32,108 nucleotides of DNA from contig JAQXAF010000146.1 of the NCBI GenBank assembly GCA_029253085.1, positions 1 to 32,108 on the forward strand. The letters run 5' to 3'. Origin of the DNA: Luminiphilus sp. GTDB taxonomy: Bacteria > Pseudomonadota > Gammaproteobacteria > Pseudomonadales > Halieaceae. Below are positions 4,528 to 6,861 of this stretch, one piece after another. Each line of letters starts with the position of its first letter. Positions within the stretch are counted from its first letter, which is position 1. Below the pieces are notes generated by a model that saw nothing but the letters and a program-made list of their open reading frames with translations, was not told the origin of the DNA and searched no databases. Both the position numbers and the translations under genes were made by a program.

Positions 4528-4544
4528 TGCACTGCGATGGTGCG
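4528..4544 (+). promoter_or_regulatory. Candidate NtrC-binding site 1
   Basis: TGCACTGCGATGGTGCG matches the NtrC dyad pattern TGCAC-N6-GGTGC. Both 5-base half-sites are exact. It lies about 90 bases before the sigma-54-like promoter, a normal enhancer distance. Confidence 0.7.
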
Positions 4545-4620: not shown

Positions 4621-4636
4621 TGGTATGCCGATCGCT
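4621..4636 (+). promoter_or_regulatory. Candidate sigma-54 promoter of glnK-amtB
   Basis: TGGTATGCCGATCGCT keeps the -24 GG and the -12 GC at exact spacing and fits TGGYAYG-N4-TNGCW. The only departure from the core consensus is C for T just before the -12 GC. The transcript should start near 4647, giving a leader of about 126 bases before glnK. Confidence 0.7.
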
Positions 4637-4650
4637 AAGGCAGAGGTATG

Positions 4651-4680
4651 TCGACGCAGCACAGGCGAGTGCTGCGTCGA
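4651..4680 (+). other. Perfect 12-bp hairpin in the glnK leader
   Basis: Arms 4651-4662 (TCGACGCAGCAC) and 4669-4680 (GTGCTGCGTCGA) are exact reverse complements around a six-base loop AGGCGA. No T-run follows, so it is not an ordinary terminator. It starts only a few bases after the transcription start inferred from the sigma-54 site, so it would form a stable cap at the 5' end of the glnK-amtB mRNA or serve as a protein-binding palindrome. From 4681 to the glnK ribosome-binding site I see nothing else. Confidence 0.75.
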
Positions 4681-4760
4681 GACACCCATGTTCACTGATA
4701 AGGAGTTGCTATGCCATTTTGCTCATTCGCTCTTACTACGTCGCTCGTCGGCACGAATAA

Positions 4761-5111
<351 letters not shown>

Positions 5112-5134: not shown

Positions 5135-6370
5135 ATGGAGAACGAAATTTTTCAGTTGCAGTACGCGCTGGACACCTTTTATTTCTTGGTGTGTGGTGCG
5201 CTAGTAATGTGGATGGCGGCAGGTTTCGCCATGCTCGAAGCCGGGCTTGTCAGAGGCAAGAACACCGTCGAAATACTCACCAAAAACGTGGCCTTGTTCG
5301 CGGTGGCGTGCACCATGTATATGGTGTGTGGCTACGCCGTCATGTACGGCGGCGACTACTTGTTAAGTGGAATTTCTGGGAATGGCGTGACCGGTGCGGA
5401 AGAGCCCGCGACCTATGCGCCGTCCGCTGATTTCTTCTTTCAGGTGGTCTTTGTTGCCACAGCAATGTCGATTGTGTCTGGTGCCGTCGCTGAGCGAATG
5501 AAGCTTTTTGCCTTCTTAGCTTTTGCTGTGGTTATGACCGGGATTATTTATCCGATGGAAGGCAGCTGGACGTGGGGCGGTAACGCAGTATTTGGCGCCT
5601 ATACCTTGGGCGACCTCGGATTTCTCGATTTTGCTGGCTCAGGTATCGTCCATATGGCGGGCGCCGCCGCTGCGTTGGCGGGGGTTATTTTGGTCGGTCC
5701 TCGCAAAGGTAAGTACGGTCCCAACGGAGAGGTCAACGCGTTTCCTGGGGCCAACCTGCCATTGGCAACCCTAGGCACGTTTATTTTGTGGCTCGGATGG
5801 TTTGGTTTCAACGGTGGCTCTGTGCTCGCAACGGCCTCAGTAGACGCCGCAAACTCGGTTGCGGTGGTGTTCATGAACACCAACGCCGCGGCAGCAGGGG
5901 GTTGTATTGCGGCACTGATTACCGCCAAGCTGATGTTCGGTAAAGCCGATCTGACGATGGCCCTCAATGGTTGCCTGGCAGGTTTAGTGGCGATTACTGC
6001 GGGTCCTGACACGCCCTCGGCGCTGCAAGCCACACTCTTTGGTGGCCTGGGTGGGGTTCTGGTGGTCTTCTCCATTATCACCTTAGACAAGCTTAAAATT
6101 GACGATCCCGTTGGCGCAATCTCTGTCCACGGTGTTGTGGGTTTGCTGGGACTGCTACTGGTTCCGGTCACCAATGACGGCGCGGCATTCTCAGGTCAAA
6201 TTATTGGTGCACTCACTATATTTGGCTGGGTATTTGGTGCATCACTGATTACCTTTGGACTGATCAGAGCTGTTATGGGTTTGCGAGTCTCAGAGGAAGA
6301 AGAGTACGAGGGTTCCGATATTGCAGAGTGCGGTATGGAAGCCTACCCGGAGTTCACCTCAGCCCGTTGA
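5135..6370 (+). CDS. amtB: Ammonium transporter AmtB
   Basis: 411 residues with about eleven hydrophobic helices of an Amt/Rh channel. The two pore histidines are His173 (GSGIVHMAGAAAALAG) and His332 (AISVHGVVGLLG). The Amt hallmark segments DFAGSGIVH, WFGFNGGS and NTNAAAAGG are present. The protein starts almost directly in the first helix (MENEIFQLQYALDTFYFLV) and shows no cleaved signal peptide. The cytoplasmic tail is acidic (SEEEEYEGSD), and the last 25 residues hang beyond the final helix. AmtB imports ammonium across the inner membrane when it is scarce and is plugged by GlnK. It is co-transcribed with the upstream glnK and followed by a strong terminator. Confidence 0.96.
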   Translation: MENEIFQLQYALDTFYFLVCGALVMWMAAGFAMLEAGLVRGKNTVEILTKNVALFAVACTMYMVCGYAVMYGGDYLLSGISGNGVTGAEEPATYAPSADFFFQVVFVATAMSIVSGAVAERMKLFAFLAFAVVMTGIIYPMEGSWTWGGNAVFGAYTLGDLGFLDFAGSGIVHMAGAAAALAGVILVGPRKGKYGPNGEVNAFPGANLPLATLGTFILWLGWFGFNGGSVLATASVDAANSVAVVFMNTNAAAAGGCIAALITAKLMFGKADLTMALNGCLAGLVAITAGPDTPSALQATLFGGLGGVLVVFSIITLDKLKIDDPVGAISVHGVVGLLGLLLVPVTNDGAAFSGQIIGALTIFGWVFGASLITFGLIRAVMGLRVSEEEEYEGSDIAECGMEAYPEFTSAR

Positions 6371-6460: not shown

Positions 6461-6488
6461 TTGCCAAATTCTACGAGCCGATCATAAT
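6461..6488 (+). promoter_or_regulatory. Candidate sigma-70 promoter of the second glnK
   Basis: TTGCCA (five of six to the -35 consensus) and CATAAT (five of six to the -10 consensus) are 16 bases apart. The -35 box lies in a 13-base palindrome, TTGGCATTGCCAA at 6455-6467, which might be an operator. The transcript would start near 6495, 28 bases before the gene. I see no sigma-54 site in this spacer. Confidence 0.55.

Positions 6489-6516: not shown

Positions 6517-6861
<345 letters not shown>

Follow-up and report, generated by a model that had tools for sequence, protein, structure and literature searches.

A predicted 5'-terminal stem-loop and an overlapping upstream ORF in the glnK-amtB leader of Luminiphilus

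The stretch of DNA analyzed here (the window, positions 1 to 32,108 of contig JAQXAF010000146.1 from Luminiphilus sp.) carries genes for a PII protein, glnK, and an ammonium transporter, amtB. The source assembly comprises 2,286,483 bases in 152 contigs, with a completeness of 78.92, and the locus matches that of HTCC2148 (L080) at 74% across 1.6 kb. The start of glnK is likely at 4773 (MKLVTAI), 12 bases past the mechanical ORF start at 4761. A BMFP-family gene lies upstream of glnK on the opposite strand, and a second PII gene is found at 6523, downstream of glnK and amtB. This second gene has a sigma-70-like promoter of its own, TTGCCA-N16-CATAAT at 6461-6488, with similar elements in several relatives, and a G+C-rich stem with a T-run is present between it and amtB. 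The usual account of glnK-amtB control combines transcription from an NtrC/sigma-54 promoter with binding of GlnK to AmtB. The region contains the following features:

4529-4543, no strand assigned: NtrC-like dyad GCACTGCGATGGTGC, GCAC-N7-GTGC, 92 bases upstream of the -24 element (motif scan)
4621-4636, plus strand: sigma-54-type -24/-12 element TGGTATGCCGATCGCT, GG-N10-GC
4645-4686, plus strand: imperfect extension of the hairpin repeat, with 18-nt arms that are 89% complementary
4651-4680, plus strand: perfect 12-bp stem with a 6-nt loop, at about +5 to +34 of the predicted mRNA
4700-4705, plus strand: Shine-Dalgarno-like AAGGAG of the upstream ORF
4711-4776, plus strand: upstream ORF of 21 codons (66 nt), whose TGA stop overlaps the glnK ATG
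4763-4767, plus strand: Shine-Dalgarno-like GGAGG of glnK, within the upstream ORF
4773-5111, plus strand: glnK, PII protein (PF00543, E 1.2e-32)
5135-6370, plus strand: amtB, ammonium transporter (PF00909, E 3.5e-99)

An earlier note on this DNA had described a perfect 12-bp hairpin with a six-base loop and no T-run, and re-reading positions 4651-4680 bears this out. The two arms, 4651-4662 (TCGACGCAGCAC) and 4669-4680 (GTGCTGCGTCGA), are exact reverse complements separated by the loop AGGCGA, and the sequence downstream of 4680 is GACACCCATG, free of a T-run. The hairpin is the sole perfect repeat with 12-bp arms and a loop of 3-8 in the whole window, and no such repeat arose in 60 dinucleotide shuffles of the window. 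It forms the core of a longer imperfect inverted repeat, with arms at 4645-4662 and 4669-4686. No Rfam family matched the window at gathering thresholds.

Upstream of the hairpin we find GG-N10-GC at 4621-4636, which we take to be the layout of a sigma-54 promoter, and GCAC-N7-GTGC at 4529-4543, presumably that of an NtrC dyad. Judged by these two motifs, the transcript would start near 4647 and the stem would span about +5 to +34. The earlier placement of +1 a few bases before the stem is consistent with them, the start itself being a prediction from the promoter motifs. All ten related genomes retain the dyad, with at most one mismatch. When the first 45 nucleotides of the predicted mRNA are folded, a free energy of -24.0 kcal/mol is obtained (z -4.6), which indicates a stable stem. 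Folding of the whole 117-nt leader is unremarkable (z -1.11).

Relatives were sought within the genus: the search covered 57 genomes, 51 of which gave matches, and loci were fetched for the best matches only. Ten genomes, including that of the window, have a common leader plan consisting of the promoter, a leader of 126-128 nt and the upstream ORF. Across these ten, the arm sequences of the stem differ in a sequence-only alignment. Pairing was analyzed on this alignment, with the tested structure taken from its first row. Standard pairs occupy 67.5% of cells, a share attained by 2 of 500 shuffles, whose mean is 59.3%. Changes on both sides occur at 9 of the 12 stem pairs compared with a shuffled mean of 6.0 (6 of 500), and the score for covariation, 0.302, compares with 0.201 (7 of 500). 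Further pair types show no excess over the shuffles (93 of 500). The slid controls give a less uniform picture. Paired cells fall to at most 47.8% (47.8% at slide -3 and 46.0% at slide -2), but cells with changes on both sides number 16 and 17 at these slides, more than the 14 in register, and slide -2 also yields more pair types than the stem in register. The stem is absent from the RNAalifold prediction for the ten aligned sequences. Of the proposed covariation of the arms, then, the part that stands is the advantage of the stem over shuffled alignments; the slid controls, with similar or higher counts of both-sided change, favor it only in part, and RNAalifold does not recover it.

The ten leaders also differ in how strongly their first 45 nucleotides fold (z: L001 -4.6, L002 -1.2, L003 -0.1, L004 0.5, L005 -2.1, L006 0.3, L007 0.1, L113 -1.5, L115 -3.0 and L116 -1.9). 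Four of them (L003, L004, L006 and L007) do no better than shuffles, and in full-leader folds of several relatives the 5' arm pairs elsewhere. Two genus members that do not have the upstream ORF (L008 and L124) have 87-nt sigma-54 leaders whose first 45 nucleotides form a hairpin that differs in sequence (z -1.9 and -0.4). In another, L126, a terminator-like stem with a T-rich tail (1476-1498) directly precedes the glnK Shine-Dalgarno sequence; the same is seen near 1476 in L127, L130, L132 and L135, and a sigma-54-like element lies farther upstream in several of these. Such a stem may act as an attenuator or mark where the preceding transcription unit ends.

Folding at the start of the transcript was then compared across a wider set of genomes. 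A sigma-54-like score of 12 or more was obtained for 71 of 214 unique glnK upstream regions, and these were kept. Of these, 55 have an NtrC-like dyad with at most one mismatch, and 51 of the 55 are long enough to score. In the dyad-bearing leaders the mean z is -0.96 over +1 to +45 (51 leaders), 0.01 over +46 to +90 (44 leaders) and -0.01 in an upstream control (55 regions). The mean z is -0.10 for the 12 that could be scored among the 16 leaders without the dyad. For the position analysis, 48 leaders that were 60 nt or longer were reduced by identity to 33, or to 31 in a stricter set. In windows of 38 nt, the mean z of the 33 NtrC/sigma-54 leaders peaks at +1 (-0.98 ± 0.24), with -0.56 ± 0.22 at -119, the position of the dyad, and values between -0.34 and +0.27 at the remaining offsets. 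When our window is left out, the 32 other leaders still give -0.81 at +1 (t -3.75). The excess at +1 is also seen in the stricter set of 31 (-1.03 vs -0.07, p 0.0015), in the nine clade leaders other than the window (-1.31 vs +0.21 elsewhere, Wilcoxon p 0.0098) and, weakly, in the 22 leaders outside the clade (-0.71 vs -0.20, p 0.040; four of 22 below -1.5), all of these p-values being optimistic because the leaders are still related by descent. Across the 31 leaders the first paired base has a median position of +4 and a range of 1 to 18. The idea of an RNA stem at the 5' end is therefore upheld in part: pairing is partly kept despite changes in the arms and the folding excess is centered on +1, but four of the ten clade leaders are unremarkable.

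As a control we analyzed glnA leaders with the same type of promoter; filtering left 35 of the 40 regions fetched, and de-duplication reduced these to 28. Their mean z at +1 is -0.56 ± 0.22, and since values at the remaining offsets lie between -0.13 and -0.70, there is neither a sharp peak nor a clear contrast with glnK. Upstream of glnA in four genus members (L233-L236), a hairpin GGCATGGTGCATGCC is found about 13 bases past the predicted +1. In the Pseudomonadaceae, covariation was assessed in an alignment of 19 glnK leaders, drawn from 21 preselected by GCAC/GTGC-like motifs after L078 and L283 were left out. In this alignment RNAalifold predicts three pairs only, none with changes on both sides, and because the leaders were chosen by those motifs, the hairpins they contain are no evidence of enrichment.

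These comparisons bear on whether the stem does anything at all. It could be a palindrome that arose by chance in early transcribed DNA rich in G+C, and the leader signal could reflect composition or general features of early transcribed regions. The weak signal outside the clade, the absence of a clear contrast with glnA, the RNAalifold result and the four unremarkable clade members are all in keeping with this explanation. Set against it are the rarity of such a repeat by chance, the use of dinucleotide shuffles, which control for composition and still leave an excess centered on +1, and the persistence of that excess in the clade when the window is removed. We consider a functionless stem unlikely, though the possibility is a serious one.

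Between the stem and glnK lies an ORF that was overlooked in the first reading of the window. Its TGA (4774-4776) overlaps the glnK ATG at 4773, forming ATGA at 4773-4776. In 10 of 10 genomes the ORF is 66 nt long, and between 64 and 66 nt separate it from +1. Its frame is stop-free in all ten, while the other two frames contain stops in four and five of the ten. An ATG-started ORF that spans exactly -62 to +4 occurs in ten of 230 unique glnK upstream regions, and these ten are the clade genomes; in one unrelated region (L043) the same span is taken up by an ORF that starts with GTG, and about a dozen other frames terminate at +4 with different lengths. Over codons 2-16, nonsynonymous differences equal or exceed synonymous ones in 14 of 14 within-group pairs, and glnK shows the reverse. 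A leader peptide acting through its own sequence is therefore unlikely. With a fixed frame and no evident selection on the peptide, it seems to be the frame that matters and not the product. An own Shine-Dalgarno sequence, an overlapping stop and a frame kept in relatives, three marks of a coupled leader ORF, are present, and the fixed 66-nt length with the overlapping stop suggests translational coupling to glnK.

The ORF raises the further possibility of a regulatory leader in which the 5' hairpin alternates with long-range pairing to the upstream ORF, so that ribosome traffic or a ligand would gate glnK translation. In full-leader folds of some relatives (L113 and L003) the 5' arm pairs with a CGTCGG stretch of the ORF, and five genomes share the ORF segment TCGCTCGTCGGCA (4741-4753) without a single difference, even at third codon positions. 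In the clade, folding predicts a buried glnK Shine-Dalgarno sequence, with a mean unpaired probability of 0.15 in the ten leaders vs 0.46 in 38 others (p 1.2e-5). However, when the upstream part is shuffled with the coding part held fixed, the sequence is already unpaired at only 0.24 (p 0.15). The burial is thus within the range of shuffles, and selection for it is not supported. Two other observations also speak against a switch: the window has no Rfam family at gathering thresholds, and genome G073 (L115) combines a clearly different 5' arm with an unchanged ORF stretch. We regard a switching leader as improbable on this evidence.

The earlier note had offered a repressor binding site as an alternative function of the palindrome. 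In this view it would be a DNA operator a short way past the promoter, bound by a dimeric repressor; the dyad symmetry is perfect, the site is one at which a bound protein would block transcription, and the inner GCAC-N6-GTGC resembles a pair of NtrC half-sites, but with a spacing of 6 instead of 7. The ten close relatives all retain the upstream NtrC-like dyad but differ in the sequence of the arms, and we therefore reject this proposal as very unlikely. An intrinsic terminator or attenuator, for which the strength of the stem could be cited, can be dismissed almost entirely, as there is no T-run after 4680.

The explanation we tentatively favor, with our confidence close to evenly divided, is that the hairpin is a 5'-terminal stabilizing stem-loop of the ompA/papA type on a nitrogen-regulated glnK-amtB transcript, accompanied by a coupled leader ORF; its function is a prediction. 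The hairpin itself is real and, with a start at the predicted +1, would be placed correctly for such a stabilizer, and the comparative support for the predicted role is moderate. NtrC and sigma-54 would initiate transcription about four bases ahead of the stem, as the motifs suggest, and the nascent RNA would fold immediately, leaving few unpaired bases at its 5' end. So little single-stranded RNA at the 5' end may hinder the entry of RppH and RNase E and prolong the life of the transcript with its 126-nt leader. Ribosomes would load at the AAGGAG of the 21-codon ORF, and termination-reinitiation would carry them to glnK, as the overlap of its start with the ORF stop suggests. According to a review, RNase E and RppH need single-stranded 5' ends, which explains stabilization by 5' structures (PMC3997798).

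A more far-reaching proposal joins the two elements into one post-transcriptional control leader, in which the stem sets the life of the mRNA and a ribosome translating the 21-codon ORF uncovers the buried start of glnK, and in which a hairpin at about +4, free in sequence, is a recurrent and so far undescribed element of gammaproteobacterial NtrC/sigma-54 glnK transcripts. We consider this combined proposal doubtful. A 5' stem whose position is kept while its sequence is free, together with the coupled ORF, would add an mRNA-level layer of control, and such a layer would set the duration and strength of the ammonium response. A stem without any effect would be just an ordinary palindrome. In the open PMC literature we found no description of a glnK leader peptide or leader ORF, nor of a 5' hairpin or stem-loop in NtrC-type glnK transcripts, and a coupled leader ORF before glnK appears to be unreported there. 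In a study of Pseudomonas stutzeri, an Hfq eCLIP peak is reported in the amtB 5'UTR and amtB and glnK are about twofold higher in the hfq mutant (PMC11332353), so control of the glnK-amtB operon at the mRNA level has precedent.

Comparison with known systems shows both likeness and difference. Overlapping, translationally coupled leader ORFs are a general bacterial arrangement. The ORF described here resembles them in having its own Shine-Dalgarno sequence and a stop that overlaps the next start as ATGA, and it differs in its position ahead of glnK. The operon of E. coli likewise has glnK followed by amtB, with a sigma-54-type element upstream (TGGCACACCGCTTGC at L230:1031), but the K-12 glnK leader is predicted to be 42 nt long and its first 38 nt fold at only -4.0 kcal/mol. 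Stabilizing 5'-terminal stem-loops have reportedly been described on the E. coli ompA and papA mRNAs (Emory 1992, Bricker 1999). As in these mRNAs, the glnK stem lies a few bases from the predicted 5' end and ahead of a translated leader region. Unlike them, it belongs to a predicted sigma-54/NtrC-type glnK-amtB mRNA, and its sequence and pairing are only partly kept in relatives.
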